Source of the DNA: a virus
Strand: one strand, 5' to 3'
Virus record (IMG/VR): IMGVR_UViG_3300031621_000019
Span: 1 to 30,788 of that record
Length of the DNA: 30,788 bases
The first letter of the stretch is position 1, and each line of letters begins with the position of its first letter. Of this stretch, positions 3,582 through 27,874 are shown piece after piece. The translations under genes and the position numbers were made by a program. The notes below the pieces were generated by a model, which had not been told where the DNA came from, did not search any database, and worked only from the letters and a program-made list of their open reading frames with translations.

Positions 3582-4592
3582 ATGCGTATTAAACATGTTG
3601 CACCTGTAATCGTTAAGCGTTACATGAACCCACAAGTCCGTAAGCGGGCTATGTTCCTACTCGGTAAGTCTGGCGTAGGTAAATCAGAGGTAGTCTTTCA
3701 GGCTTCTGATATGCTTGCTAAGCACGTACCTAATTGGCAGGGTGTTACAGACCTTCGCCTGTCGCAGATGGAACCCACCGAGCTGCGTGGTATGCCCGCT
3801 GTAGACATGGCTAAGCTGGTTGCTAGCTGGTGTCGCTTCGACCTCTTACCTACTGACGGTGCAGGGATTATCTTTCTTGACGAGCTGACCTCCGCCCCTA
3901 AGATGCTGCAAGCTGCGGCATACCAGCTAGTTCTCACACCTGCTGACTTTGGCATACCTGATACATGGATGGTGGTGGCTGCTGGTAACTTCCAGAGCGA
4001 CCGTGGCGTTACGTACCAGATGGCTGCGCCGCTGGTCAATCGTTTCAACTACTTAGAAGTTGACACAACGCTTGACGACTTCTTGGAACACGCTGTAGTC
4101 AATGGCTTACGCCCAGAGATCACATCGTTCTTACAAGATCGCCCTGACTACCTGCATCACTTCGAGGCTACTGGCGAGACCAAGCCCTTCCCTTCACCTA
4201 GGTCATGGTTTGCCTGTAGCGATGCGCTGGCGTTGGATTTGCCAGAGGAAGTGCGACCTGAGATAATCCGTGGTGACGTTGGTGAGGAAGCGGGTATTGC
4301 GTTCGATGCACACCTCCGCGTGTTTGGCGAGATGCCTCGCATAGACGACATACTTAGTGGTGTAGAAGTAGAAGTACCGACCAAGCTCAACGTAGTGTAC
4401 TGCTGCGCTATGGGTCTGGCTGCAAGGGTAGACAAGAGTAACTTCGCTAACGCGTGGAAGTTCCTGTCTAAATGCCCGGGCGATGTGCAGACACTTACTG
4501 TTAAGTTAGCGTACAAGCGTGACAAAGAGATCGCTAAGTCCCCTGCTTACTCGCAGTGGGCTATGCAGAATCAGGACGCGTTCGCCGCCTAA
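3582..4592 (+). CDS. MoxR/CobS-type AAA+ ATPase
   Basis: 336 aa; ATG at 3582 with GGAG upstream. Walker A is GKSGVGKS (residues 28-35), Walker B is IIFLDE (D100-E101), a sensor-1-like AAGN follows, and LVNRF gives an arginine-finger-like segment. This is the layout of MoxR/CobS AAA_5 ATPases, ring-forming chaperone-like remodellers that act on or with a VWA-domain partner. That partner is the next gene (4656-6047), and the DUF3150-like gene upstream completes a trio seen in other phages. The length is normal for the family. The stop TAA is the start of palindrome copy 6. The substrate in this phage is unknown; remodelling a host or virion complex is an inference. Confidence 0.88.
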   Translation: MRIKHVAPVIVKRYMNPQVRKRAMFLLGKSGVGKSEVVFQASDMLAKHVPNWQGVTDLRLSQMEPTELRGMPAVDMAKLVASWCRFDLLPTDGAGIIFLDELTSAPKMLQAAAYQLVLTPADFGIPDTWMVVAAGNFQSDRGVTYQMAAPLVNRFNYLEVDTTLDDFLEHAVVNGLRPEITSFLQDRPDYLHHFEATGETKPFPSPRSWFACSDALALDLPEEVRPEIIRGDVGEEAGIAFDAHLRVFGEMPRIDDILSGVEVEVPTKLNVVYCCAMGLAARVDKSNFANAWKFLSKCPGDVQTLTVKLAYKRDKEIAKSPAYSQWAMQNQDAFAA

Positions 4593-4605
4593 TCCCATGG
4601 GATTA
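4590..4605. repeat. 16-bp palindrome, copy 6
   Basis: Perfect copy whose TAA is the stop codon of the MoxR gene. Its ATG (4597) opens a 14-residue frame beginning MGLKTLAV and ending at 4641, 14 bases before the VWA gene. It is followed by A, as are all later copies. Confidence 0.95.
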
Positions 4606-4610
4606 AAAAC

Positions 4611-4630
4611 GCTGGCTGTAACAGGCCAGC
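4611..4630 (+). other. Stem-loop between MoxR and VWA genes
   Basis: GCTGGC pairs with GCCAGC around the 8-base loop TGTAACAG, giving a 6-bp GC-rich stem just after palindrome copy 6. No T-run follows, so it is not a standard intrinsic terminator. It could be a processing or attenuation structure. Confidence 0.5.
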
Positions 4631-4655
4631 AGACTTATTAACTGAGGTAATTGAT

Positions 4656-6047
4656 ATGACAAGTTTAGCAAAAACATTACTAGTCACTGACCCGATTGTA
4701 GACGTTGAGTACGAGCGTAAGCGGGTAGAGACTGCTTATAACAAGCTGGGCATACGGGAGCCGTTCGTTGCGGCTGTAATGTCCAAGATAAAGCGCGAGG
4801 TAGTTGTTGACCCTAGGATACCTACGGCAGCTACCAACGGTGCGTGGGTTAAGTACAACCCCAACTTCACTGCCAAGTGTACCGACCCCCAGTTGTTTGG
4901 GCTGGTACTACACGAATCCCTGCATGTAATACTGATGCACATGTGGCGTAGAGGTCAGAGGCACCCCGGTCTGTGGAACTATGCGAATGACGCGATAATC
5001 AACTTATATATACGTAGTCGTGGCTATGAGTTACCAGAGAACGGCGTGGATGTTAAGTGGGTTACGGAGGCTATGTCGTCTGAGTTAGTATATAAGCGCA
5101 TGAAAGACGAGCTGCCCGAACCACCTGAAAAGCCTGAGCCACCTGCTGGCGGTAAGCCTTGCGAGGATGGTGAAGGCGAAGGTGAAGGTGAAGAAGAAGG
5201 AGAAGAAGGTGATGATAAAGGTGGCAGCGGCAGTGGAGGTGGTGATGACGATGATGACAGTGCTGATGATGGCAGTGGCAGTGGCTCTGGTTCTGGTTCT
5301 GGCGGCAGTGCTGACGGCAGTGGTGGCGATGAGGGGCCAGAGGATGACGGCATTCCCAAAGGCGGCTGGGACAATAGCGGCGACCTACTGGACGCGGATG
5401 ACGAAGCGAGTAAAGCTGATCTCGAAGCGACTATTATTACTGCTGCCCAAATGGCTAAGACCTGCGGACAAGGTTCGGCGTTAATAGATCGCATCCTTGG
5501 CGACATAGGTAAGCCGTCTGTAAACTGGGAGGATGTGTGCAGGGAGATGCTAACTAGTAGTGCGCGTACTGACTTCTCTTTCTCACGACCTAATCGTAGG
5601 TACGTGTGGCAGAATATCTTTATGCCTTCCCTACTTAGCGAAGCAGTAGGCGCGTTGTTGATTGGCTTTGATGTGTCAGGTTCTATGTCACAATCCGAAG
5701 CGAACCAAGTAGCCGCAGAAATTACGGCTATCGCGTCAGACCTAAATCCTGAGTTTGTGGAAGTAGTGTACTGTGATACCCGCATTACAAAAGTAGAACG
5801 CTTTGAGCAAGGCGACGATGTAGTGCTGAATGTAGTTGGTGGTGGTGGCACTGAGTTTGCCCCTGTGTTTGACTACTTAGCAGCAAGCGAGGAGCAGTAC
5901 GCTGGCATGATCTACTTTACGGATATGTGCGCGCGTACTTCTCACTTAGTCCAGCCTGATATACCTGTTATCTGGGCTGACACAAGCGGTCATTACGGCA
6001 AGGAAAATCCACCGCCGTTCGGTGTCCTCGTAGATGTGAAGCTGTGA
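4656..6047 (+). CDS. VWA-domain protein with N-terminal metallopeptidase-like domain (DUF2201 type)
   Basis: 463 aa. The N-terminal domain has HESLH followed by VILMH (H86, E87, H90, H95), a zincin-like HExxH motif. A long low-complexity linker of about 75 residues follows (residues about 165-240), first Glu/Gly-rich and then Gly/Ser/Asp-rich. The C-terminal domain has the MIDAS motif DVSGS at D339, with further conserved Thr/Asp residues (GGGGTEF, FTD), as expected for a metal-binding von Willebrand A fold. The pairing of a DUF2201-like front with VWA is the usual partner of MoxR ATPases, here encoded directly upstream. The protein is cytoplasmic, with no signal peptide. Whether the HExxH is catalytically active is not known. 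The downstream 58-aa frame overlaps its stop. Confidence 0.82.
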   Translation: MTSLAKTLLVTDPIVDVEYERKRVETAYNKLGIREPFVAAVMSKIKREVVVDPRIPTAATNGAWVKYNPNFTAKCTDPQLFGLVLHESLHVILMHMWRRGQRHPGLWNYANDAIINLYIRSRGYELPENGVDVKWVTEAMSSELVYKRMKDELPEPPEKPEPPAGGKPCEDGEGEGEGEEEGEEGDDKGGSGSGGGDDDDDSADDGSGSGSGSGSGGSADGSGGDEGPEDDGIPKGGWDNSGDLLDADDEASKADLEATIITAAQMAKTCGQGSALIDRILGDIGKPSVNWEDVCREMLTSSARTDFSFSRPNRRYVWQNIFMPSLLSEAVGALLIGFDVSGSMSQSEANQVAAEITAIASDLNPEFVEVVYCDTRITKVERFEQGDDVVLNVVGGGGTEFAPVFDYLAASEEQYAGMIYFTDMCARTSHLVQPDIPVIWADTSGHYGKENPPPFGVLVDVKL

Positions 6048-8644: not shown

Positions 8645-10486
8645 ATGGATGTAATATTCATAGATTTTGAGACTTATTACGACCAAGAGTACTCACTTAG
8701 CAAGATGCAGACTGATGCCTATGTGCTAGACGATAGGTTTGAAGCCATCATGGTAAGCATACGGCTGAACGGTAAGACTGTAACCTTGCACGGTACAGAG
8801 GAATCCCTACAGTACCAGCTTACTAACTTACTAGACTGGTCTAAGTACGTGGTGGTAGCACACAACATGATGTTCGACGGCTTTATCATGGCCCAACGAT
8901 ATGGGATAAACCCACGCATGTGGCTATGTACTTTGGCACTTACTAGGATGGTTAAGCCGTTTTTACGGTCACACTCCCTGTCTAATATATCTAAGTACTT
9001 CGGTTTCCAAGAGAAAGGGCACGCAGTACACAACATGAAGGGTGTGCATCGGGCAGACATGAGTGACGCAGATTTTGAGGCGTACAAAGAATACTGCACT
9101 AATGACGTAGACCTGTGTGAGAAAATCTACAACGAGGTAATAGGATTCTGCCCGCTGCTTAGCCAAGTACTTGTAGATATGACCATCCGCATGTTTACAG
9201 AGCCTTTGTTCGTAGGTAATAAACCTATGATGGCCGACCTACTGGAGAAGGAGATAGCCCGTAAGGAAGGACTAATGACCTTAGCAATGGTGTCGCGGGA
9301 TGAGATAATGTCCAACGCCAAATTTGCTGAAAGGCTGCGGGACTTGGCGGTTACACCGCCGACTAAAGTAAGCCCGCGCACAGGTAAGACTACGTTCGCG
9401 TTTGCCAAGACCGACAAAGAATTTATGGAGTTGCTGGAGCATCCAGACAGCGAGGTTCAGGCGTTGGTAGGCGCAAGAGTCGGAGCGAAAACTACTATTG
9501 CCCAGACTCGCGCTGAGCGGTTTATAGAAATGACCGACAGAGGCCCGCTTCCTGTGTACTTGCAGTGGTGGGGCGCAAAGACGACTGGTCGCTACTCTGG
9601 CGGCAACAAAGTTAATTGGCAGAACTTACCTGCGCGTGGCTTATCCGCTGGTTTGCGTAATGCGCTAGAAGCACCATCGGGATACACGGTAGTTGTTGGC
9701 GATTCGTCTAATATAGAGCTGCGCACGGTCATGGCTCTGGCTGGACAAGAGGACGCGTTGGAGAAGTTACGTGCTGGCGTAGATATGTACTGCCATTTCG
9801 CTAGTACTTTGTATGGGCGAGAGATAACCAAGGCCGACAAGCTAGAACGGTTCTTAGGCAAGACGGCTATGCTGGGACTACAGTACGGTGCAGGTGCGCC
9901 TAGGTTCGCAGAGATGGTTCGCATACAAGGAAAGGCTATGGGCGCAGAGCCTATAGAGCTGGAGAAGGCGTACGAAACGGTGGAGCTGTATCGCGGCATA
10001 TACAGCAGAGTAACCGCCCTGTGGAGGCATTGCGAGCGTTCTATACTGCCTGATATAGCTACGCGGTGTGACCACTTGCGAGTTGATGTAAACGGCTGGT
10101 ATGTGACGCAGTACGAGGGGTTTGGTAGGCCCGGGGAACCCGGAGTTGTTTACCACAACCTGCGTTTCGACTCCGAAAAAGATGAGTATATATACGACCA
10201 AGGGCGCGTGATAGGCAAGAAGATTTACGGGCCTAAAGTAGTAGAGAATCTGTGCCAGCACGCCTCCATGCAGATCGTTATGTGGCAGACAGCTAGGATA
10301 CACCAGCGATACCCTGTTAAGTTGTCTGTGCATGATGAGGCTGTATGTATCGTGCCAGACTCCGAAGTTGCTGACTGCGTAGCGTGGATGGAGGACTGCC
10401 TGTCCACTACCCCTGAATGGTGCAAGGGTAAGATACCCGTAGTGGGCGAAGTAGAAGTAGGTAGGTCTTATGGTGCTGCCAAATGA
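8645..10486 (+). CDS. Family A DNA polymerase with 3'-5' exonuclease domain
   Basis: 613 aa. The N-terminal proofreading domain has FIDFET (D7, E9), VAHNMMFDG and a later YCTNDVDLCEKIY, matching the DEDD exonuclease motifs. The polymerase domain has motif A DSSNIELR (D353), motif B R402-x3-K406-x7-Y414-G415, and motif C HDE (H563-E565). All catalytic residues are present; there is no 5' nuclease domain, as usual in phages. The residue four after K406, equivalent to E. coli Pol I Phe762, is Leu410, a substitution used in viral ecology as a marker. The start is 10 bases after palindrome copy 9. The protein copies phage DNA together with the primase-helicase at 15191. The end overlaps the Mom-like gene (ATGA). 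Confidence 0.95.
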   Translation: MDVIFIDFETYYDQEYSLSKMQTDAYVLDDRFEAIMVSIRLNGKTVTLHGTEESLQYQLTNLLDWSKYVVVAHNMMFDGFIMAQRYGINPRMWLCTLALTRMVKPFLRSHSLSNISKYFGFQEKGHAVHNMKGVHRADMSDADFEAYKEYCTNDVDLCEKIYNEVIGFCPLLSQVLVDMTIRMFTEPLFVGNKPMMADLLEKEIARKEGLMTLAMVSRDEIMSNAKFAERLRDLAVTPPTKVSPRTGKTTFAFAKTDKEFMELLEHPDSEVQALVGARVGAKTTIAQTRAERFIEMTDRGPLPVYLQWWGAKTTGRYSGGNKVNWQNLPARGLSAGLRNALEAPSGYTVVVGDSSNIELRTVMALAGQEDALEKLRAGVDMYCHFASTLYGREITKADKLERFLGKTAMLGLQYGAGAPRFAEMVRIQGKAMGAEPIELEKAYETVELYRGIYSRVTALWRHCERSILPDIATRCDHLRVDVNGWYVTQYEGFGRPGEPGVVYHNLRFDSEKDEYIYDQGRVIGKKIYGPKVVENLCQHASMQIVMWQTARIHQRYPVKLSVHDEAVCIVPDSEVADCVAWMEDCLSTTPEWCKGKIPVVGEVEVGRSYGAAK

Positions 10487-11094
10487 GCAAACAAGACTAC
10501 AGAATAAGTTTAGTAGACAAGCAGTCTTGCGAGAGCATACTTATGAAGTGGCACTACCTAAAAGATATAAGCGTGGGCTTTAAGAGTGGCGTTAACTATG
10601 GTCTATTTACAGGCGACAAACTATGCGGCGTATGTATATACACAGCGTTGCCAGTGCCAGAACTAGTTAAAGGTATGTACGGACTGGAGCGAAACGACCA
10701 AGAAGGGTTCTTTGAGTTGAGTAGGCTCTGCCTAGAACCAGAGGTACAGAAGGTAGAACACAATCTAGCTAGTTGGTTTGTGAGTAAGACAATTAAAGAG
10801 TTGAGAAAAACACACAAGGTCAGGTCTATTCTTAGTTACGCAGATAACGACCACCACAAGGGTATTGTTTATAGGGCGTGTAACTTTAACTACTATGGGC
10901 TAACCGCAAAGAAGAAAGACTTTTGGGTGTTGCAAGGTGACGGCAGCCATAAGAAACTTTCGAGGGGGAAAACAAAGGGCGTTGCTGGGGAGTGGCGAGA
11001 CAGGAGCCAAAAACACAGGTTTGTTATGACGTTTGACAAGACGTTAAATATGCTTTGGGAGTTAACTAAAATAAAGGAACTTGAATATGAGTGA
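10483..11094 (+). CDS. Mom-like (GNAT-fold) phage DNA modification protein
   Basis: 203 aa, starting at an ATGA overlap with the polymerase gene. Key segments resemble phage Mu Mom and its relatives: FELSRL (E78, R81), a central amphipathic helix, SYADN (S118-D121), then GIVYRACNF and a glycine. Mom proteins have an acetyltransferase-like fold and modify adenine in phage DNA (carbamoylmethyl-adenine in Mu), protecting it from host restriction. The C-terminal 50 residues are basic, compatible with DNA binding. The assignment is from remembered motif patterns; a generic GNAT enzyme is the alternative. Placement inside the replication cluster fits modification of new phage DNA. Confidence 0.62.
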   Translation: MSKQDYRISLVDKQSCESILMKWHYLKDISVGFKSGVNYGLFTGDKLCGVCIYTALPVPELVKGMYGLERNDQEGFFELSRLCLEPEVQKVEHNLASWFVSKTIKELRKTHKVRSILSYADNDHHKGIVYRACNFNYYGLTAKKKDFWVLQGDGSHKKLSRGKTKGVAGEWRDRSQKHRFVMTFDKTLNMLWELTKIKELEYE

Positions 11095-12244: not shown

Positions 12245-13791
12245 TTAAAGAACAGAAGAAAGTAGTACTTGATACGTCTGCTAACGACGTGATCGCTGAA
12301 GTGATACCCCACTCCAAGCGAATCACTAAAGACGGCAAGGACTTAGTAGTAGTGCCGCATGGCGTGCAGGAGTTTATGGTTCTAAGGAACATGGGCATAT
12401 CCATACCCGCCCCCATACACTATTACTATGATTTCCCTGCTAGATTTAAGCCGATGCAACATCAGCTTGGTACTGCTGAGTTTCTTTCTGTAAACAAGCG
12501 GGCGCTATGTTTGAACGCTCCGGGGACAGGTAAGACTATAAGCGCGCTATGGGCCGCTGATTTCCTGCTAACTTCTAAAGAGGCTAAGAAGGTGTTGATT
12601 ATCGCGCCCCTGTCCACACTTAAAGAGGTATGGGGTAGAGAGATTAAGCAGCACATGCCGCATAGGACGTTTGTTATATGTACAGGTGCTAGGGAGAAAC
12701 GACTGAGGTTATTGAATACCCCCGGGGTGCAGTACGTAATCATTAACCATGATGGGTTCACTAATCTTAGCGTAGAACTAAATGACTTTGATGTAGTTAT
12801 TTATGACGAGGCCACCGCACTTAAATCACCTAGGTCGCGGAGGTTTAAGACATTTTTTAACTGGGCTAAGAAGCACCAGCCTTGGGTGTGGCTGCTTACA
12901 GGTACTCCAATATCACAGACCCCCGCAGATGCTTGGGCTTTAGCTAGACTAGTAGAGTCTAAGAATGTATCCAAGAGCTATACAGCGTTTAAAGAGACCG
13001 TGATGCAGAAGGTATCTCAGTTTCGCTGGCTGCCTAGGCCAACAGCATTGGAGACATGCAAAGAGGTATTACAACCGTCTATAAGATACTCACTAGATGA
13101 GTGTAAGGATTTACCTGATACTAATTTTGTTAATCGGAAATGTGAGTTGACCGCTGAACAAAAGTTGGCGTTTAAAGAAATGCAGACTAAGGCTGTAACT
13201 ACCTTTGCAGGTGGGCAAGTGACCGCAGCCAACACAGCGGTTATGCTATCCAAGCTATTACAGATTTGCTGTGGCGTGGTGTATACAGAAACTGATTCTA
13301 TTTGCTTAGATGCTAAGTTCAGGTATAATCTACTCACTGAATTGATTGACGAGATTGGCGGCAAAGTTATTATATTTGTGCCGTTGAAAGGAGTACAGTA
13401 CTGGCTCCGTGATTCACTTATTAAAGATGGATACGACCTCGCTCTGGTTAACGGGGACGTTAAAGGCAAAGAACGCGACCAGATATTTAATGACTTTCAG
13501 CATACGGATAAGCCTACTATATTGTTGGCGCATCCCAAGGTAGCAGCGCACGGACTTACGCTCACTGCCGCGAAAGATATTATCTGGTACGCACCGATTT
13601 ACTCATTAGAGCAATATGAGCAAGCAAATGCGCGCATACGTAGAATTAGCACGGAAGGCAAGACTACTGTATGGCACATACTGGCGACGAAGTTTGAGGC
13701 CGAGCTGTACCGTCGATTACGACAAAAGCAGAATGTCTTAGCTGCGTTTCTTGACCTAGTCAACGGCGTAAATTCCGACGACGATTACTGA
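12235..13791 (+). CDS. SNF2-family DEAD/H-type helicase/ATPase
   Basis: 518 aa, starting with ATG at 12235 inside the end of the VRR-NUC gene. Motif I is APGTGKT (K100), motif Ia-like IIAPLSTL follows, motif II is DEAT (D191-E192), motif III is TGTPIS, and motif VI is QANARIRR near the C-terminus. Two RecA-like domains of the SNF2 type are therefore complete. Phage SNF2 helicases of this size usually follow a VRR-NUC gene; the pair probably acts on branched DNA during replication or recombination, the nuclease cutting and the ATPase translocating. No extra domain is visible. It ends 12 bases before palindrome copy 10. Confidence 0.92.
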   Translation: MLVIKEQKKVVLDTSANDVIAEVIPHSKRITKDGKDLVVVPHGVQEFMVLRNMGISIPAPIHYYYDFPARFKPMQHQLGTAEFLSVNKRALCLNAPGTGKTISALWAADFLLTSKEAKKVLIIAPLSTLKEVWGREIKQHMPHRTFVICTGAREKRLRLLNTPGVQYVIINHDGFTNLSVELNDFDVVIYDEATALKSPRSRRFKTFFNWAKKHQPWVWLLTGTPISQTPADAWALARLVESKNVSKSYTAFKETVMQKVSQFRWLPRPTALETCKEVLQPSIRYSLDECKDLPDTNFVNRKCELTAEQKLAFKEMQTKAVTTFAGGQVTAANTAVMLSKLLQICCGVVYTETDSICLDAKFRYNLLTELIDEIGGKVIIFVPLKGVQYWLRDSLIKDGYDLALVNGDVKGKERDQIFNDFQHTDKPTILLAHPKVAAHGLTLTAAKDIIWYAPIYSLEQYEQANARIRRISTEGKTTVWHILATKFEAELYRRLRQKQNVLAAFLDLVNGVNSDDDY

Positions 13792-18148: not shown

Positions 18149-18407
18149 CTACCGTAAAGAATATGATAACTACCACGGTACGGCTAAGCAAAAGAAGAAC
18201 CGCGCTGCCCGCAACTGCACTCGCGCCATTATGGTTAAGGCTGGGAAAGCAAGGAAAGGGGATAATATGGACGTAGACCATAAAATCCCAATGGCTATGG
18301 GCGGGGCTAAGTGCAACCCAAAGAACCTAAGAGTAGTCGCTAAAGGCACTAACCGCTCTTTTGCTCGCACTAAAACTGCTCGTATGAAGAAAACTAGAAA
18401 TGCTTAA
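18129..18407 (+). CDS. Small HNH endonuclease
   Basis: 92 aa; ATG at 18129 follows AGGAGG inside the end of the primase-helicase gene. The motif is VDHKIPMAMGG (D50-H51), then NPKNL (N66) and TNRSF (N75), the DH...N...N/H order of HNH enzymes. The N-terminus is very basic. There is no second DNA-binding domain, so it may be a general nicking or homing-like nuclease; it could also act with a terminase, but none is near. Its stop codon TAA (18405-18407) shares the TTAA with the stop of the opposite-strand giant gene, so the two operons meet without any spacer or visible terminator. Confidence 0.85.
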   Translation: MPSKKRNYRKEYDNYHGTAKQKKNRAARNCTRAIMVKAGKARKGDNMDVDHKIPMAMGGAKCNPKNLRVVAKGTNRSFARTKTARMKKTRNA

Positions 18408-21400
18408 TCATCTTCTCTTTCTCTGCCGAAAAGCTCGTCCAGTTCATCCCGCCGTCTTTTTCTGAGGTCGGCTAATTCTTCACGTAGGCCAGCAAAGTCT
18501 GGTGTGCCTTTCCTATACTCCGCTTTTCTAGCCCTAGAGATAGCCATACCATAGTCCCGCTTAATAAATTTGGCACTGCTACTCTTAATCTGACGCTCTT
18601 TGTCTGTGGTGGGGTTGTAGAACTTAAAGCCAAACGCCCTAGCAGCAAACATACCGTCCATCGGCTCCCCTGTGAAGTCTTTAGTGCCGTCTATCCATTT
18701 CATTAGTTTGTCTTTGTTTCTATTACTAGCGACAGGAGGCATAAACATGTCAAACACCATACCCACATTGCGCATAGTGGTGTCCATACCAGTGTCGGTG
18801 GGGTCGCTAGTCTTTCTGCCCGTAAAGGCATCAACGCTTAGGGCCATACTAGCGGCTATAACGAACGGGCCGCTAGGTGCGAGACCTCCGGGCCAGTTGC
18901 TGTACCCGAACGTACCTCCCGGCACCCCTCGTCCTGTACTAACTAGCGGTATGTAGTCGCCCATCTTCCAGTACACAGGGTCTTTATCACTGCCTAGAAA
19001 GGGTATGCGAATCATAGTGTGGGGGCCAAACGAACCAAACAATCTTTCTTGGTACGCCTCGCCCATCTTATTGCGATCTTCGTCATCTTCACCAGCAAGC
19101 ATAGAAGCAAACGTGTCAACCATTGCATAAGACGCTAGCACGTTGGCAAGCATCCACGGCTTAGTTAGGGCTATCTTTGTCAGCACAGGCACAACAGCGT
19201 ATGTCCACGATGCGAAAGGCATAACACTTTGCCGCGCCATATTTAGCGCAGCGGAGTCAATGTCGTAGTTAAGGAACGCTTCACGGCCAAACTTACCAGC
19301 TTCATCCCACTGTGCGTCTGTGAGATTCATGTCAGATGTAAGGTCTGTAGCGCCGTCAGAGTTAATTTCTTGTGCCTTACCAGCACTATGCAGGAACGCA
19401 GCTAATCGGAATACGTTATCTTCCGCAGCGTATACATCCAGAAACATTTTGTCTGCTCGGCCCGCTTTCCTACCCGCTTTCCTAACTACGCTTTCTATAT
19501 GCCCGCCCTCAATACCTAGCATAGTTAGCGTCCTACTCGCTAAGTCGCCGTTGTTTTTGTCGGTCATATCTTTAGCCATACGCTCAGCTACGTTGTGACT
19601 CACTTCAGTGGCAGAGAAGTTACCCAGCAAAGCGCCAGACGCTTCAAACTTGGCTAAAAACTCAACTTCAGCGCCAGTAAGTTTGTCGGGAGTTATTGCT
19701 GACTTGTATAGAATTTTCGCTGCGTATCTAACTGTCCCAAACGATATGCCGTGCGCCATCATAAGCGATAAATTAGATATGGCGTTGGTCATGTGAGTGC
19801 CGGGGTTACGTGTCGTCTTAGATAATTTAAACTGCCTAAGAACCTTGCTATAACGCTTGCCAAAAGAACTGCTAAACAACTGTTCCCTAGCTGCCATGTC
19901 TTGCATAGCAGCGTATACAGGGCCAGAGACTATCTTGCCTGATATATCACCCCAAACTTCTACATCAATGCCTTCGGCTTTCATAGTTACAGTGTCAGGC
20001 ATTTGCACGTATGAGCTTGTTACGCGGAGCTGAGAAGACGTAGCAACTGATTTGAGGTTTTTGGTTTTTATTGGTCTATCTTCGGGCACTGGTTTGAATG
20101 TCACTCCATCGCGCTCTGCTGAGTCTTTTAAGTACGAATTAAGTTCTTCAAGACTTTCCCAGATAACGGGCACCTCGCCTCTTTCTTCAGCATCTAAGTC
20201 TATTTTGCCGTTCGTACGTCCCGTTTCAAATAATGCTCTAAAGTACCGAGCAGACGCGTAGTACGTACCTATTGTGTTTGCTGTATTAAGTATAGCCACT
20301 CCAATATCATCGGCGGCTAATATCTTTTCTTCCAAAGTCTTAGCGTCTTTCAATGCTTGGGCTACGGTCTTGTTGGTAGTAAACGTAACAATGCCGTTAC
20401 CTTTGGAGTCATCAGCTTTCCACAATCCGCCGTTTTTATAAATTGCGAATGAAACGCCCTCTGCGTCCAGCACAGTTTCTCCCCCAAACAGTTCGGCAAT
20501 GTCACGGCGAACGTACCCTTGGTGCTTGTCGGGCATTGGCTTGCCGTTTTCATCCATTTTTACTACGCGGTAGTATTCAGCCCCTGTGTTTAGCGGCGTG
20601 CCCTCTGGCACGGAGCCGTCCGCGTCTTCAACTTCTGAGCTGTAAACCCATTCATCTGTTAAGTTTTCTTCGTCTTTCTTACGGTCTTCACCTATTATAG
20701 TTCTTAGCTTCTTCATGCCCGGAGTGCTAGACCCAATGTCAGCGTCGCCCTCGACAAATATTAAGTTTTCAGTAAATTTACCCGCGAAAAAGTTACTCAT
20801 GCTCTCAGGCAGTGAGTTTGTTTTCTCTTTGAGCGACGCTATTAAGTTGTCAGCACGGGCCGCCATGAGTTTGCCACCTGTTACATTGTCCAGAGCGTTC
20901 TTATCTCCATCCAAGTAGGCTAAGTAGGCTTGTGCGCTGTCCATGTCTGTCTCTATAAGCCGCTTTAACTTAGATGAAACTAGTTCTGCAAGCTGTACGA
21001 TGGTGTGCTTATCTGTCTTGAATGTATCAAAAGCCTGCTTTAGCGGCATCCCAAACGCTAGCTTGGGGTTCATGTATCGAACCATCGTTTCTATGTTGGG
21101 GTGCTTCTTTGTGAAGTCCACAAGCGTTTCTTTGATTTTGGCTTGATACTTAGCTGGAGTACCTTCGGGCAGCATACCGTTAACAAAATCAAACAAAGGC
21201 TTAGTTATGCCATACGTAGTGCCTTTGCTATATCCCCGCATGTCTCTATTAGTCTTGGCAGCAACGCTTTCACTAGTTACGTCAGCTTTAAGGACTGTTC
21301 CAGACAAAGGCGCGCTCTGAGTAGGATTGTCGTGAGCTTCTTGCAGTAGCGCTATCGTGGCATCTAGTACCTGAGAAGCTGAGGATTCCCCTACTCCTTC

Positions 21401-24400
21401 TACTTGCGGCAGGACTTTACGCAAAACGCCTATTATTCCCCGCCAAGTTTTCTCAACAGCGAGCTTCCAATTGTTAGCTTCTTTGGTTTTAGGCTTGGGT
21501 AAGTTGTTGAGCATTAACTTAAATGAGTACAGCGTGTTGCCATAAGATATAAGCTCAAGCACTGCGTTCTTCATGCCTTGGTTTTTGTCTTTTGCGCTGT
21601 CTCGTAATTCTCTAAGTATGTTTTGTACTTCAACAGCTTCCAGCCTTTGCTGGTCGGTTAAGCCAGTAACTTTGGCTAAGTCAGTGTTTATTACTAAGTT
21701 TACGTTATCGGCAAGAACCTTGATAGCCGCGCCCGCTGCGTTTTTCTTGCCAAAGTTCGTATAGACATACCCTTGAAGTACAGCGTGCAGTATTTCGTGC
21801 AAAGCTACTTCTGCGCTTACAAACTCAGGAAAAGTTATAGTATCGGTATTGGGGTCGTAGCTAGGCTTCGCATCTTTTTTAGTGTCAAACACTACTTTTG
21901 TTTCTGCTATCCCTGCCGCTCTTTGGCTTTTTATCACACGATCTAGCAGCTTCCTAAGCATCCTAGAAGTTACTGTCGCGTTGCCAGAATCAGCGGCCCT
22001 GTTCATAACGCCGAGCAAACCTTTGTAGTTTGCCTTTTTTAAATGCCTATTGCCGTTGGGCACATACCCATCTCTATAGGCTAGTTTTAGACTTTTTTGG
22101 GTTTGCCCGCCAGTAGGCTTGCCTAACTCTTTATTATTGGGGCGCGTACTGCGTCCCTGTGGCGCTATGTCGTAGTTTTCGTTTAGCCGCCCGTCTTTGT
22201 ATGCGGCAAACAGAGTTGATACAACAGAGTCAGCTTTACTTGCGAAGTCCTCACGGCTAGATGTCTCTGCTTTACCATTCCCAAACAGAGTATTAGCATA
22301 TTCAAAAGCAGAGGCATTAGAAGTCGAGTCTTTGCCACCCCTTACCTCCTTAGCGCCTTTTATAACAGCCATAATAGCGTTGGCGTTTGCTTCGCCACCT
22401 ACAAGTTCTATAAACTGCTCTACGGCTTGCACTAATGCGGGCATTTGTTCCGAACGTATTTCTGCTGAGGCTGCTGCTGAATCATCATCTTTTTTCTTAG
22501 CAAGCTGCTTTCCATCGTTTAGGAAAATAGAACCTAGTTTTAGAATATTAAGGTATGCCTCGCGTATGCTATCTATCTCTTGGCTATTAGCAGCGGTTCC
22601 TTCTTTATCTACTATGACGCCGCCTTCGCTGTCAGGATTAGCTTTGTACATCCTGTTAAAGCCACCTTTAGTCGGGCTTCTCAAATGTCTAGCTACCGCA
22701 GCTAAGAAGCTCTGCGACTTAGTGACCTTACCCGTTGTGCCACCCTCAGTGCTTGTAACTTCGGCTTTTAGAGCTTCGTTTTCAGTTGATTCTATTGCTC
22801 GCTCCATTTCTTTTGGCGTAAACACCATGTCGTCAGTTGCTTCCCCTCGCGCTTCTGGCGAGCCTTCGCTTACTGGGTCTGCTCCTGTCTGCCCCTGTTC
22901 TTGTCCAGTTACGTCAATTGGGCCTGTCCCTGCAACGGGGTCAGCTACTGCAACGGGGTCAGCAACGGGGTCAGCAACGGGGTCGCCTTCTACAACTGGG
23001 TCAGCTCCTGTAACGGGGTCACTTATTGGCTCGCTTTCTTGCTGTTGCTGCTGCTGTTGCTCAGCCGCAGCTCTAGCGGCTTCAACTGCCTCCTGTTGCT
23101 GGCGCTCTTGCTCAGCTTTATATTCAGACGGCAGTACGTCTTCGACATTTAAGCGCTCAAGATCAACACGCGCAGTATTAGCAGTATCGTTAGCTGCAAG
23201 CTGTTCTTCAAGAGCGGCTATTTGTCCCTCTATTCCTTCTACTATGCTTTTCTTTGCGGATACCCCTGCGGCTTTTCGCTGCTTCTTCGTCCCTTTACCT
23301 GTCGGCACTGGGGCAGCTTGCTTTGCTTGTTCTAGGTCATAATTTAGGTTTTTTATTTCCCCTGCTTTATCTTTTTGTTGTTGACGGTCTAGGCTCCCCC
23401 CTACTTGCACTTCCAGTTCCTGCCTAACTTTCTCCTTCTCTGCTGCACGTTGTACCTGTGCCTCAGCGGCGGCGGCGGCTTCAGCAGCTTCAACATCTTC
23501 AGCGGCTTGGTCTTGTCCTGTGTTTGGAGCAAGGTCAAGCTCGCCCGCTTCGTTTTCCGTTGCAGTAGTTGTGGGGACTCCCTCTGCTTCAGCTTCAGCA
23601 GCTTCTCGCTCAGCGTTGTCGTTTGTCGCTTCAGGGTCTATTTCGAGAGTCTTGTCTACCGCAGGGTTAGGTGTTAGTGCGGCAACACCTCCACTAAAGG
23701 TTCCGCCAACAAGTCCACCAGTAACAGCCGCGTTTAACCTGCGAGAGCTTTTCTCCTCGTCTGTAAGGTCGTCCCGCATAGACATTTCTAGTTCTGTCTG
23801 GCCTAGTTCAGTGACAGTTTCAGCAATTGCCCCTGTGCCCCCTACTTTACCAACGCGTTTTAACTTAGAAGCGTCATTGACCAGACCACTCATTAAGTCA
23901 ACTTGGTCGTCAGCGCCAGCAGCGACAGTACTTGATTTGCCTTTAAACGCTCCTCTGAGCATTTTACCAATGCCTAGAGGTACTAAAGCCTCTGCGGCTG
24001 CGTAGGGAATGGCTTTGACAAACGAAGTGCCAGCGTCAGGGTTGCCTCCCTCTACAGACTCGTTGTATAGAGAGCCGACACCAATACCGTAACCAGCGCC
24101 AAGCGCACCTGCCGCAGCCCCTGCACCTAGTCCACCAGTAACTAAGCCAGCACCGACAATGCTACCCATTATAGGAATTTGCTTACCTAATTGGTTTACA
24201 TAAAAATCAACTCCGCTGCCAAAGCCGTCTATGTCTTCTACTCGCTGGGCTATATCTGGGTTGTTGCTCAGTTGTGCCTGTATGTTCTGAGTTTCTACTT
24301 GCTCGTTTAAATAATCTTTTGCGCCGTCAAATCCTAACGCGTCAGCGCCAGCAGCGAGTGCGCCATAACCTAAGCCTTGTATTTGGTCAGAACCCGCAGC

Positions 24401-24574
24401 TAGGCCAGTGCCAAACGCACCGCCACCTATGCCAGTGTCCATACCAAGGTAGTCTGCCACCTCGGTCATGTTTCGCCCAGAATACTCAGCAAATTTACTG
24501 ACAAGAAGTTCGTCACTTATGTCAGGATTCCCTGCGGCGGCTCTAAGCCCATCCATGTTAAATACTCTAGCCAT
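18404..24574 (-). CDS. Giant multidomain virion/polyvalent protein, 2056 aa
   Basis: ATG at 24574 overlaps the stop of the transglycosylase frame (TAATG). The N-terminal ~300 residues contain long Gly/Ala-rich hydrophobic stretches (residues about 140-175) that could insert in a membrane. Residues about 310-610 are low complexity: E/A-rich coiled coil, a poly-Q run and DPV repeats. HEILH at residues 926-930 is a zincin HExxH. The C-terminal third has helical and hydrophobic stretches and ends in a charged tail. Such very large proteins following virion genes resemble podovirus ejected internal proteins (T7 gp16-like) and phage large polyvalent proteins, which carry enzymes into the cell with the DNA. 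Here the transglycosylase lies in the preceding frame. The role is inferred. Confidence 0.72.
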   Translation of the reverse strand: MARVFNMDGLRAAAGNPDISDELLVSKFAEYSGRNMTEVADYLGMDTGIGGGAFGTGLAAGSDQIQGLGYGALAAGADALGFDGAKDYLNEQVETQNIQAQLSNNPDIAQRVEDIDGFGSGVDFYVNQLGKQIPIMGSIVGAGLVTGGLGAGAAAGALGAGYGIGVGSLYNESVEGGNPDAGTSFVKAIPYAAAEALVPLGIGKMLRGAFKGKSSTVAAGADDQVDLMSGLVNDASKLKRVGKVGGTGAIAETVTELGQTELEMSMRDDLTDEEKSSRRLNAAVTGGLVGGTFSGGVAALTPNPAVDKTLEIDPEATNDNAEREAAEAEAEGVPTTTATENEAGELDLAPNTGQDQAAEDVEAAEAAAAAEAQVQRAAEKEKVRQELEVQVGGSLDRQQQKDKAGEIKNLNYDLEQAKQAAPVPTGKGTKKQRKAAGVSAKKSIVEGIEGQIAALEEQLAANDTANTARVDLERLNVEDVLPSEYKAEQERQQQEAVEAARAAAEQQQQQQQESEPISDPVTGADPVVEGDPVADPVADPVAVADPVAGTGPIDVTGQEQGQTGADPVSEGSPEARGEATDDMVFTPKEMERAIESTENEALKAEVTSTEGGTTGKVTKSQSFLAAVARHLRSPTKGGFNRMYKANPDSEGGVIVDKEGTAANSQEIDSIREAYLNILKLGSIFLNDGKQLAKKKDDDSAAASAEIRSEQMPALVQAVEQFIELVGGEANANAIMAVIKGAKEVRGGKDSTSNASAFEYANTLFGNGKAETSSREDFASKADSVVSTLFAAYKDGRLNENYDIAPQGRSTRPNNKELGKPTGGQTQKSLKLAYRDGYVPNGNRHLKKANYKGLLGVMNRAADSGNATVTSRMLRKLLDRVIKSQRAAGIAETKVVFDTKKDAKPSYDPNTDTITFPEFVSAEVALHEILHAVLQGYVYTNFGKKNAAGAAIKVLADNVNLVINTDLAKVTGLTDQQRLEAVEVQNILRELRDSAKDKNQGMKNAVLELISYGNTLYSFKLMLNNLPKPKTKEANNWKLAVEKTWRGIIGVLRKVLPQVEGVGESSASQVLDATIALLQEAHDNPTQSAPLSGTVLKADVTSESVAAKTNRDMRGYSKGTTYGITKPLFDFVNGMLPEGTPAKYQAKIKETLVDFTKKHPNIETMVRYMNPKLAFGMPLKQAFDTFKTDKHTIVQLAELVSSKLKRLIETDMDSAQAYLAYLDGDKNALDNVTGGKLMAARADNLIASLKEKTNSLPESMSNFFAGKFTENLIFVEGDADIGSSTPGMKKLRTIIGEDRKKDEENLTDEWVYSSEVEDADGSVPEGTPLNTGAEYYRVVKMDENGKPMPDKHQGYVRRDIAELFGGETVLDAEGVSFAIYKNGGLWKADDSKGNGIVTFTTNKTVAQALKDAKTLEEKILAADDIGVAILNTANTIGTYYASARYFRALFETGRTNGKIDLDAEERGEVPVIWESLEELNSYLKDSAERDGVTFKPVPEDRPIKTKNLKSVATSSQLRVTSSYVQMPDTVTMKAEGIDVEVWGDISGKIVSGPVYAAMQDMAAREQLFSSSFGKRYSKVLRQFKLSKTTRNPGTHMTNAISNLSLMMAHGISFGTVRYAAKILYKSAITPDKLTGAEVEFLAKFEASGALLGNFSATEVSHNVAERMAKDMTDKNNGDLASRTLTMLGIEGGHIESVVRKAGRKAGRADKMFLDVYAAEDNVFRLAAFLHSAGKAQEINSDGATDLTSDMNLTDAQWDEAGKFGREAFLNYDIDSAALNMARQSVMPFASWTYAVVPVLTKIALTKPWMLANVLASYAMVDTFASMLAGEDDEDRNKMGEAYQERLFGSFGPHTMIRIPFLGSDKDPVYWKMGDYIPLVSTGRGVPGGTFGYSNWPGGLAPSGPFVIAASMALSVDAFTGRKTSDPTDTGMDTTMRNVGMVFDMFMPPVASNRNKDKLMKWIDGTKDFTGEPMDGMFAARAFGFKFYNPTTDKERQIKSSSAKFIKRDYGMAISRARKAEYRKGTPDFAGLREELADLRKRRRDELDELFGREREDD
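22930..23032 (-). repeat. Short tandem repeat coding for DPV units
   Basis: A 12-bp unit (plus strand GCAACGGGGTCA) occurs at 22932-22943 and three times back to back at 22950-22985, the last with one mismatch, with degenerate copies up to about 23020. It encodes ADPV-type units in the giant protein, next to a run of glutamine codons (about 23040-23065). This marks a flexible spacer and a likely site of length variation. Confidence 0.8.
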
Positions 24575-25077
24575 TATCCGTTAAACCCTTCCATTATTTT
24601 TCTAGCATAAGGCTCAGTTTCTTGCCGTTGCGGCAGCGAGGCGTAATTTCTGCCTGATTTTATCCATTTGTCTGCGTTGGCGGGGCCAGCGTTGTAAGCT
24701 ATTAGCGCAGCTTCTTGGTCGTTGCCATACCGTTTAAGCATAGCGGCTATGTACTGCTGTCCAAAACGGACGTTTTCTACAGGGTCGTACGGGTCTAAAA
24801 GAGGCTCTACCCCAAAGCCGGGGTCTTTAGCTGTTTCTGGCATAACCTGCATCAAACCCATAGCACCTGCATCGCTTTTCGCACGGGGGTTTCCACCGCT
24901 TTCTGCGAGAATAATCTGGTCAACAAGTTTATCAAGTTTAGGGTTGCCAGTAGATGCAGGGGTATACCCACCCTGCGTTTCTAATCGCCTGTAGGTAGTG
25001 GCATTTGATAACCCTTCTTTTGGTGGCGTAGCCGCTTTGGGTGCTGGGGGTTGAGGGCTAGGAGACCCTCCCGTTAC
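24574..25077 (-). CDS. Lytic transglycosylase (SLT) domain, probably a -1 frameshift extension
   Basis: The frame is open from 25107 to TAA 24574-24576 and has no ATG, GTG or TTG before the internal Met at 24861. It contains the full SLT family 1 signature: LAESGGNP with the catalytic Glu, AGAMGLMQVMPET, and AYNAGP. The Met at 24861 would cut off the Glu, so an independent start is unlikely. In the upstream 589-aa gene, G GGA AAG precedes TAA; slipping by -1 there continues in this frame as VTGGSPSP..., a proline-rich linker of about 30 residues, then the domain: 167 residues in all, giving a 756-aa fusion. It would cut peptidoglycan during DNA entry, like T7 gp16. The alternative is an unusual ATT start. 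Confidence 0.8.
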   Translation of the reverse strand, partial: VTGGSPSPQPPAPKAATPPKEGLSNATTYRRLETQGGYTPASTGNPKLDKLVDQIILAESGGNPRAKSDAGAMGLMQVMPETAKDPGFGVEPLLDPYDPVENVRFGQQYIAAMLKRYGNDQEAALIAYNAGPANADKWIKSGRNYASLPQRQETEPYARKIMEGFNG

Positions 25078-26843
25078 TTTCCCGGCGTTAACCCTCTGGC
25101 TTGTGACCTATTCGCGGAGTTTTGCCCTTCTAATTCAGCTAGTTCAGCGTACAAACCTTGTAATTTTTCATAGTTTGCATTTTGGCTTTTTTCTGCATTG
25201 TAGTTGCCCAAGAAGCCATTGTATTCGCCCCCACGGCCAAGACCCTGTTGCCTCTGCCTCTGCCTACTGGCTTCTTGGGGTGTTGGCTCGCGGAGGTTGC
25301 CATCTTGGTCAGTATAGAGAGGAGGCGCTTGGTCTATCGCTTTTTCCTCAAGTTCTGTAATCTCGCTTTGTAGCCGCTGCTGTTTGTTAGCATCAGGTGA
25401 ACCCTGCAAAGGGTCGCCGTCCTGCGCGCTGTACGATACAGTTTGTGGGTCAGAGTTAGGCAAAACCTTTTTTAGAAAACTTACAAGAGTATTGTCACCT
25501 TCTTCTGGAATATCAATACCGCCGACTAAATTAGTAAATTCGTCTGCCGTCATTAGGGATTCTAATGGGGCAAATATCTGAAGTTTCATTATTTCTTTTT
25601 CGTCGTCGTCTAAGCCCGCATAGACTTCAGAGTTAATAAGGGTATCCGTCCCTTTCATTACAGCCTCTGATATCGACATTTTGTTATCAAAAATATCCTG
25701 CTTATAAGCTGCCATCGTCGTCGCCGCCGCCTTCATTTCAGTAGAGTAACTCTGAGCTGCTAAAGCGGGGTCTGTAGCTTTGGTGCGCATGTAGCGTTCC
25801 ATCATGTTTTCACTTGCGAAGGGCATCCTTTCTTGCTCTACATCGTCGTCATCGCTATAAGTGACTAGCTCTACCCCACCGTCTTTACCTTTTTCCATTA
25901 CAACATAAGTGCCCGCAGTTAGAGTTTCTTCTGCCGTGTACAGGGCAAGAAGTTCCTTCGTAGTTTTAGCGCCACTTACTTTCCCTTCCATTGATGCTGC
26001 TAGGTTATCTATTGTCGCCCTTCTAAGGCCGGTATTATGCGTTAGATACGCTGTTTTTTGCACGTCGTCTAATTCTTGGTACGCTCTACTATTAAATTTT
26101 TCTTCGTCGTTCATTCCCGACGTAGCTTTCAAAGCCGCGTAAAGCGTTTCTTGTCTTTCTCCTTCAGCAATCCTAAAGTCGTTTATTTTAAGATTTTGCT
26201 GAAAAACCTGATCGTCTTGCGAGTCCTTACGTGCGTTACGCTCGTCTTCTTTAACATCTCTGCCCTGTCTGTATTCAATGTCTTCTTGGTTCGATGCACG
26301 GATAGCTACATCGTCAGCCATGTCTGTCTGTCCGCGACTACGTAGTAACCCTTCGCGCTTACGTAACATCTCTGCTTGAGTTATAGCGGCAACTTGTTCT
26401 GGCCTTGCGCCCATGCCCATAGCTTGCCCAGAAGCAGGAGAGCGAGACTGCTGTGAGTTTGGTGCGACTGGGTAGGCTGACAGTAATTCGCTGTTTCCGG
26501 GTTGCCTCATTAGCCCCTGAGCAACTGTCTGATTTGGGTCTGGTCTAAACTGCGGATTATCAACAGGAGACATTTGCGGAATGCTGCCAGCAGGGGTTGT
26601 GCCTAAGCCAACTTGTTGCGCCTTTAGCTGCTGTGGAGTCATACTAGCCAGTCTTAACTGCTCAACGTCATAAGCGCCGCCAGCGGCAGTGGAAGATTCT
26701 ATTTCTTCGGCGTTTTTTGTCTGCAAGCCCTCTATTTCAGCTTGAACTTGCCGCTCATCGCGATTTCTCCTAGATGCTCTAAAGTTATCAATCGCGCTTT
26801 CTGCGGCTTTTTGGCCCGCGTACATACCTGCTGCAAAACCCAT
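25074..26843 (-). CDS. Virion protein, 589 aa (zero-frame product of the frameshift pair)
   Basis: ATG at 26843 overlaps the stop of the previous gene (TAATG) and has AAGGAG eight bases upstream. The product begins with MGFAAGMYAGQKAA, a small-residue hydrophobic start, followed by long Q/E/R-rich helical and low-complexity parts (about residues 30-220), a more folded middle, and a Q/R-rich C-terminal end. No enzyme motif is seen. By order and composition it resembles the middle internal core protein of podoviruses (T7 gp15-like position): an Ala-rich protein before it, a giant protein after it. Its last codons are the slippery GGA AAG followed by TAA, so a minority of ribosomes would add the transglycosylase. 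Confidence 0.72.
   Translation of the reverse strand: MGFAAGMYAGQKAAESAIDNFRASRRNRDERQVQAEIEGLQTKNAEEIESSTAAGGAYDVEQLRLASMTPQQLKAQQVGLGTTPAGSIPQMSPVDNPQFRPDPNQTVAQGLMRQPGNSELLSAYPVAPNSQQSRSPASGQAMGMGARPEQVAAITQAEMLRKREGLLRSRGQTDMADDVAIRASNQEDIEYRQGRDVKEDERNARKDSQDDQVFQQNLKINDFRIAEGERQETLYAALKATSGMNDEEKFNSRAYQELDDVQKTAYLTHNTGLRRATIDNLAASMEGKVSGAKTTKELLALYTAEETLTAGTYVVMEKGKDGGVELVTYSDDDDVEQERMPFASENMMERYMRTKATDPALAAQSYSTEMKAAATTMAAYKQDIFDNKMSISEAVMKGTDTLINSEVYAGLDDDEKEIMKLQIFAPLESLMTADEFTNLVGGIDIPEEGDNTLVSFLKKVLPNSDPQTVSYSAQDGDPLQGSPDANKQQRLQSEITELEEKAIDQAPPLYTDQDGNLREPTPQEASRQRQRQQGLGRGGEYNGFLGNYNAEKSQNANYEKLQGLYAELAELEGQNSANRSQARGLTPGK
25077..25083 (-). promoter_or_regulatory. -1 ribosomal frameshift site G GGA AAG
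   Basis: On the mRNA, the last codons of the 589-aa gene read CCG GGA AAG TAA, giving the X XXY YYZ heptamer GGGAAAG with the stop codon directly after it. This is the heptamer used by lambda for gpG/gpGT. An SD-like AGAGGG lies eight bases upstream, and a weak stem (GAGGG with CCCTC) is possible just downstream; both are features that can raise -1 slippage. Confidence 0.75.
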
Positions 26844-27874
26844 TACGCGGTCTCCTTGCCAGTTATCTCAAGCATACGCGTGTTAAGCGCGCCGTAGTTT
26901 ACAGAGTAGTATCCGTCTATGCCGAGTTCTACTGCGTATGGGTAGTTAATAACAACTTCGTCAGCCATAAGACCTACAAACGTACGATCTGGTTCTTTTA
27001 TATAATTAAACGTGTAGAAGTTAAGGTTCAAGTTCATATCTTTGTGATGGAACTCTACATTCTCTTTAAGCCTACGGTCAGACATACCCATTGCCCCACC
27101 AGCTAAGCCCATAACCGCGCCAAACTTAGCGCCTTGCATCTCTTGGTTAGATGAGTATATATCCGTCTGAGTACCCATAATGCTGTTCAAGCCACTCATT
27201 TGAGTCTGTGAACCAGCATTGTATATGCCCGCACCAGAAGAAATACCCGCTTGATAATTCTGCCCAGCAGCTTGGTAAGTGTTAGCACCCGCAGAGCCAG
27301 CCCCCACAGAACCTTGGTAGGCTGCGGAAGATGCACCTGCCAAACCACGACCTAAGCCACCTGCGTCTAGGCGTCTAGCCCAACCAAGTTGCTCAGCTTG
27401 ACTGGTAGCGTTTGTCATAGAGTTAGCTCTGGAAGCGGCTAAACCTAGTGAAGCCTGTTGTCTAGCGGCCCTAGCGGCTGGTGAGTTGGGGTTAAGTCCC
27501 CGCGCTGCGTCAGAACGCGCTAGTGATTTTTGTGTATTTGCGAAGGCGTTACCCGCAGCGGCAGAGGCTTCACCCGCCATTTTTTCGCCATAAGAAGCGC
27601 TGCTAAAATTCTGCGCGTCAGAAACTAAGCCCTGTTCTAACGGCCTAAAAGTTTCTTTGTTGTAGTCAAAGTAGTCCTTACCTTGTTCTAACTGCTGAGC
27701 TTGCGCAGCAATTTGCCCATCTCCAATCGCGTCAAGCCTAGGCTTGTTTTCTGCATACTGCCGCTCCGCAAAGTCTATTGCCCTTCCGCCTAAGTCCCTA
27801 GACGTTTCCGCTGCATACTGCGCGGCTGCTTCCATACCTGAGTAGTCAGGAGCTTCGCTTGATTTCTTACCCAT
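26843..27874 (-). CDS. Ala/Gly-rich virion protein with C-terminal S74-like chaperone segment
   Basis: 343 aa; ATG at 27874 follows GGAGAGGG. Residues 1-260 are rich in A, G, S and Q with repeated AAA and GxG patterns (GSVGAGSAGANTYQAAG), as in phage internal or ejected virion proteins. Residues 264-343 begin SDRRLKENV and continue with FYTFNYIK, FVGLMADEV and PYAVEL, the pattern of S74/endosialidase intramolecular chaperone domains, which fold trimeric phage fibres and then cleave themselves off. It is shorter than many S74 domains and lacks the long final helices, so self-cleavage is uncertain. It overlaps the GNAT-like gene by eight bases and the next gene by TAATG. Confidence 0.72.
   Translation of the reverse strand: MGKKSSEAPDYSGMEAAAQYAAETSRDLGGRAIDFAERQYAENKPRLDAIGDGQIAAQAQQLEQGKDYFDYNKETFRPLEQGLVSDAQNFSSASYGEKMAGEASAAAGNAFANTQKSLARSDAARGLNPNSPAARAARQQASLGLAASRANSMTNATSQAEQLGWARRLDAGGLGRGLAGASSAAYQGSVGAGSAGANTYQAAGQNYQAGISSGAGIYNAGSQTQMSGLNSIMGTQTDIYSSNQEMQGAKFGAVMGLAGGAMGMSDRRLKENVEFHHKDMNLNLNFYTFNYIKEPDRTFVGLMADEVVINYPYAVELGIDGYYSVNYGALNTRMLEITGKETA

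Follow-up and report, generated by a model that had tools for sequence, protein, structure and literature searches.

How is an enzyme domain translated when its reading frame holds no canonical start codon ahead of the catalytic residue? The question is raised by a 30,788-nucleotide (nt) stretch of viral DNA, the whole of which is referred to here as the window (IMG/VR record IMGVR_UViG_3300031621_000019, positions 1 to 30,788). In the window, an SLT lytic transglycosylase domain follows a gene for a 589-amino-acid (aa) protein and lies in the -1 frame relative to it. Sequence comparison leads us to conclude that programmed -1 frameshifting at the end of the 589-aa gene very probably yields a minor form of its product that bears the SLT domain.

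The minus strand carries the 589-aa open reading frame (ORF), the SLT frame, and the genes for a 2056-aa and a 343-aa protein (Table 1). Reading this strand, we recovered the features on which a preliminary description of the locus had relied: the 589-aa ORF ends in CCG GGA AAG TAA, and GGGAAAG (25083-25077) is a perfect heptamer in slippery phase. Phage lambda slips on the same heptamer to make gpG/gpGT. The SLT frame is bounded by TAG 25110-25108 on its 5' side and TAA 24576-24574 on its 3' side. Its first ATG, GTG or TTG is ATG 24861, 3' of the catalytic Glu codon (24903-24901), which agrees with the earlier claim that no start precedes this residue; ATT, ATC, ATA and CTG are likewise absent before ATT 24915. 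Translation through a -1 slip on the heptamer enters the SLT frame as had been proposed. The next codon is GTA (V), the junction peptide is PGK-VTGG, and the predicted product has 589 + 167 = 756 aa. A sequencing error joining the frames is ruled out by near-identical contigs with the same junction (IMGVR_UViG_3300031597_000013 and 3300031637_000347, 99.5-99.98% overall identity) and by diverged homologues. Two other routes to the SLT were considered: stop readthrough was rejected, as past the TAA the zero frame soon meets more stops without SLT coding, and RNA polymerase slippage was rated unlikely because a long homopolymer run is absent.

Two relatives share the arrangement: L007 (contig 3300031658_000030; L002 and L105 are the same locus) and L021 (contig 3300020184_000033). 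In L007, a 540-aa upstream homologue ends in ARGLSPGK, GGGAAAG abuts TAA, and the SLT lies in the -1 frame with no ATG, GTG or TTG ahead of its catalytic Glu, so that an independent SLT start was found in neither the window nor L007. The L021 upstream protein is only 27% identical to that of the window and its SLT 60% identical; the gene ends TTG GGA AAG TAG, and the SLT is again in the -1 frame. Alignment of homologues, suggested earlier as a check, thus shows GGGAAAG kept at the junction in L007 and, despite its deep divergence, in L021 as well. The -1 frame opens 15-27 nt 5' of the heptamer in all three phages. L021 also has AAATTTG, another heptamer of slippery type that is in phase and overlaps GGGAAAG just on its 5' side (12705-12726, CAAATTTGGGAAAG).

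The window and L007 differ sharply within the upstream gene itself. Its 3' 60% is no longer alignable above background and appears replaced or very diverged (window 26180-25115, minus strand), with flanks about 90% identical. Identity returns sharply at the frameshift junction, where a 37-nt identical run spans the heptamer, the stop and a whole downstream hairpin. The pattern resembles recombination, or rapid evolution, with the junction as its boundary. The two junctions themselves are related by descent.

We compared 68 upstream genes that are homologous or equivalent in position and together hold 38,132 codons. Three of them (window, L007 and L021) contain GGGAAAG in phase, each time abutting the stop and each time with an SLT in the -1 frame; the other 65 lack it. 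Since in-phase GGGAAAG is confined to the genes with a -1 SLT, the pairing is, on this comparison, not due to chance. The block of 343-aa, upstream and giant genes recurs in about 70 IMG/VR loci. In the remaining relatives, with few exceptions (L059, L079, L124), the gap between the upstream stop and the giant start is below 70 nt, and a profile built from these SLTs found none in any other frame between the two genes in the surveyed relatives. Both the SLT and the heptamer are missing from L022, which is a sister of L021 with 62% identity in the upstream protein. Scanning every IMG/VR contig for the heptamer, a stop and ESGGNP at matching spacings gave no further loci; the known carriers are a small group of uncultured phages.

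Homologues with both parts in one frame had been named earlier as a finding that would speak against frameshifting. Such fusions do exist, but only in the distant L135, L147/L150 and L152, where the protein encoded just before the giant gene has the SLT in-frame within its central part. These upstream proteins have no detectable similarity to the 589-aa protein of the window; the SLTs of L147 and the window share about 50% identity. The in-frame SLT is a different architecture and does not represent the arrangement of the window in corrected form. Among these phages the same enzyme domain would then be absent, present in every copy, or, as in the window, reachable only by a slip.

The SLT domain of the window matches Pfam PF01464 (4e-26; 91.3 bits versus a curated cut-off of 21.3), and its profile matches Slt70-type enzymes and T7 gp16 in the PDB (gp16 E 4.8e-6). 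The catalytic Glu (ES motif) and the GLMQV and AYNAGP motifs are all present; LAESGG, G-L-x-QVM and AYNAG are invariant across the window, L007 and L021 and align to solved Slt enzymes. Comparison of the window with L007 (non-synonymous divergence, dN, 0.15; synonymous divergence, dS, 0.39) indicates purifying selection on the reading frame of the SLT; the linker indel between them is 12 nt long and keeps the frame. The likely role of the domain during infection is to cut the bacterial cell wall.

Candidate stimulators flank the heptamer at the expected spacing in all three phages, strong in L021 (top 0.3% of in-phase positions) and moderate in the window and L007 (top 7-8%). At 8-9 nt upstream stands a purine-rich element, complementary to the anti-Shine-Dalgarno (anti-SD) sequence (-6.3 kcal/mol in the window and L007, -5.6 kcal/mol in L021), that is a possible frameshift stimulator. 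About 6 nt downstream, L007 has the same hairpin stem as the window, GAGGGU/GCCCUC (-9.8 kcal/mol). L021 has an unrelated 9-bp stem (GGCUUGGGG/CCUCAAGCC) at the same spacing (-15.9 kcal/mol). Taken jointly, the SD-like stretch and the hairpin rank in the top 0.5% of positions in the window and L007 and the top 0.07% in L021.

We propose that most ribosomes translating the 589-aa gene would terminate at the TAA and that a fraction would slip -1 on G GGA AAG, so that the tRNA in the P site re-pairs from GGA to GGG and the one in the A site from AAG to AAA. The upstream SD-like stretch and the hairpin 6 nt downstream would probably aid the slip. Ribosomes that slipped would read 167 further codons, a Pro-rich linker and then the SLT, so that a minor 756-aa form, perhaps only a few copies, would combine the same virion-binding part with a C-terminal peptidoglycan-cutting enzyme. 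This form would enter the particle together with the 343-aa and 2056-aa proteins, as part of a DNA-ejection apparatus; the SLT would open the cell wall at entry, and the slip rate would fix the enzyme dose per particle. If frameshifting does occur, gene context makes it quite likely that the product is a virion or ejection component acting at entry. We also think it likely, with slightly less confidence, that this phage lineage uses frameshifting to set the number of enzyme copies per particle by attaching the enzyme to a sub-stoichiometric share of an ejection protein, where relatives fuse the enzyme in-frame to every copy or lack it.

Table 1. Positions of the junction elements and adjacent genes in the window
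Feature	Position	Strand	Remark
Zero-frame ORF, 589 aa	25074..26843	-	terminal codons ACG CCG GGA AAG TAA
Slippery heptamer G GGA AAG, TAA immediately 3'	25077..25083	-	X XXY YYZ phase
-1-frame ORF, Pro-rich linker and SLT lytic transglycosylase	24574..25107	-	Pfam PF01464
SD-like AGAGGG, 8 nt 5' of heptamer	25092..25097	-	candidate stimulator; anti-SD duplex -6.3 kcal/mol, top 6.6% of in-phase positions
Candidate hairpin GAGGGU-CUCCUA-GCCCUC, 6 nt 3' of heptamer	25053..25070	-	-9.8 kcal/mol, top 7.4% of in-phase positions
37-nt run identical between window and L007	25051..25087	-	longest around junction and SLT; extends over heptamer, TAA and the entire hairpin
343-aa virion protein, upstream of the 589-aa gene	26843..27874	-	PHROG 'virion structural protein', Peptidase_S74
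2056-aa giant protein, downstream of the SLT	18404..24574	-	ATG start overlaps SLT stop

The neighbouring genes supply the context for this placement. The L013 homologue of the 343-aa protein also matches a 'DNA ejection protein' PHROG. The 343-aa protein, of head or virion type, carries a Peptidase_S74 intramolecular chaperone domain at its end, a domain better known from tail fibres. On the other side, the 2056-aa protein is 86% identical to its L007 counterpart and 39% to that of L021. It has no match in Pfam or PHROG searches. An ART-PolyVal domain in its L010 relative suggests that the giant proteins may be injected effectors of the polyvalent type, and the 2056-aa protein is a probable ejected protein. 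It contains an HExxH-like stretch, LHESLHAVL, that is mostly kept in close relatives. A change of frame close to the 5' end seems to interrupt the giant gene of L059 (12661-13619).

The 589-aa protein likewise has no Pfam or PHROG match. Its AlphaFold2 model is mostly helical and of low confidence (predicted local distance difference test, pLDDT, 67; predicted template modelling score, pTM, 0.37), and this low-confidence model gave no significant fold match, T7 proteins included. Gene context makes it a probable internal or ejection virion protein. No homologues of the 589-aa, 343-aa or 2056-aa proteins were found in a collection of named phages, and a scan of GTDB genomes found none of the 343-aa family. 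The replication genes are closest to those of Rhizobium phage RHph_TM3_14A and Pseudomonas podovirus KPP25 (DNA polymerase 34% and 30% identity, respectively). Homology between the 2056-aa protein and KPP25 ORF088 was not detected.

Several observations weigh against a frameshifted virion enzyme. Because the window and L007 junctions share descent, the truly independent junction lineages number two, not three. The window hairpin alone is unexceptional, with a shuffle z-score of -0.2 to -0.5 beside its rank in the top 7.4%. The virion placement of the 589-aa protein is drawn from gene context, with neither a family nor a fold match behind it. Finally, in L021 a GTG precedes the catalytic Glu by 8 codons, and weak internal initiation from it is possible in that phage. 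This GTG, together with a purine-rich GGGAGGG right after the 589-aa stop, would suit a separate SLT protein made by re-initiation or internal initiation on a non-standard codon. We consider separate synthesis improbable: the window and L007 offer no ATG, GTG or TTG before the Glu, the window offers no ATT, ATC, ATA or CTG until 4 codons before it, and independent initiation would leave unexplained why GGGAAAG abuts the stop only in genes that bear the SLT. One may also ask whether the frames were parted by a sequencing error or recent mutation, leaving a decayed or mis-assembled in-frame fusion, given that distant relatives do carry an SLT inside the upstream protein. That origin is extremely improbable: other contigs carry an identical junction, the SLT is likewise at -1 in L007 and L021, purifying selection acts on it, and the 37-nt junction is conserved; moreover, the in-frame relatives differ in domain order.

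It is also conceivable that the SLT is unexpressed and that the junction is kept for some other reason, for instance as a signal that serves the giant gene; in all three phages the start of that gene overlaps with the stop of the SLT (TAATG in the window and L007, TAGTG in L021). An unexpressed SLT is very improbable, as its codons are under purifying selection and its catalytic and structural motifs remain intact down to 60% identity. The last alternative accepts the -1 product and differs in function only, assigning it to lysis or to an intracellular role; SLT domains occur in many contexts, and the place of the 589-aa protein in the virion is itself deduced. We regard such a role as unlikely. 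L007 encodes a holin and an amidase apart from the SLT, which makes a lysis function improbable for the latter; the gene is flanked by genes of virion or ejection type; and a related SLT is found in T7 gp16, an internal virion protein (PMC3080317, PMC4283147). Overall, programmed -1 frameshifting onto a virion-associated SLT accounts best for the locus.

T7-like phages carry the SLT at the N terminus of gp16 (PMC3080317, PMC4283147). The window resembles them in that its SLT stands at the boundary of genes 2 and 3 of a three-gene ejection-type block. However, every gp16 copy has its N-terminal SLT, whereas that of the window is a slip-dependent C-terminal extension of the preceding protein. 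Neither the 589-aa protein (sequence and fold) nor the 2056-aa protein (sequence family) matched T7 proteins, and we therefore do not file the block as T7-type; the likeness rests on gene order and is suggestive. Relatives L135, L147/L150 and L152 also have an SLT in the gene before the same giant-protein family, but being in-frame it is on every copy.

To our knowledge, the frameshift extensions of T7 gene 10 and of the major head protein of Lactobacillus phage A2 are not catalytic domains. Both are capsid genes, and resemble the window in giving a minor frameshift-extended virion protein (T7 gene 10A/10B, PMC4283147; A2, by -1 frameshifting, cited in PMC10885494); papers on T7-like genomes discuss the gene 10 frameshift. 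Lambda gpG/gpGT offers another parallel, since a -1 slip near the end of a late gene gives a minor C-terminally extended protein, and this frameshift is conserved among tail assembly chaperones (PMC5009743). Yet gpG and gpGT serve as assembly chaperones that the mature virion lacks, and T functions as a binding domain; in the window the added part is an enzyme, and the gene that it extends encodes a probable virion protein. A lactococcal phage lysin, cited in PMC10885494, ties a peptidoglycan hydrolase to a possible frameshift, but this enzyme serves lysis and does not extend a probable virion protein. In Orsay virus, a fraction of the capsid protein bears a frameshift-derived C-terminal domain (PMC5009743); this is a nematode virus, and the extension is not an enzyme.

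The earlier remark that no such case is described agrees with our search of open-access text on frameshifting together with a transglycosylase, hydrolase, lysozyme domain or internal virion protein, which found no description of a virion-associated peptidoglycan hydrolase as a frameshift extension. The accessible part of a 2016 recoding review likewise has no mention of transglycosylase, lysozyme or endolysin. The mechanism is thus known (lambda, T7 gene 10, A2 and others; PMC5009743, PMC10885494), and the enzyme cargo appears to be new.

If the proposal is true, a slip decides what share of a virion protein bears the enzyme, a simple genetic dosing of a virion-associated peptidoglycan hydrolase. 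Tail chaperones and capsid variants are the main known cases of frameshifting in phages. The number of hydrolase copies required per particle would become a directly testable question, for which relatives with the SLT in-frame or absent are natural comparisons. Gene callers may miss or truncate such a domain, as the first canonical-start ORF in the window begins past the catalytic residue.

Elsewhere in the window, 3582-6047 on the plus strand encodes an AAA ATPase and then a DUF2201 metallopeptidase/VWA-like protein (Pfam 3.4e-36), for which the PHROGs label HNH endonuclease looks wrong. The plus strand also encodes a Mom-like DNA modification protein at 10483-11094 (Pfam Mom, 2.6e-27).

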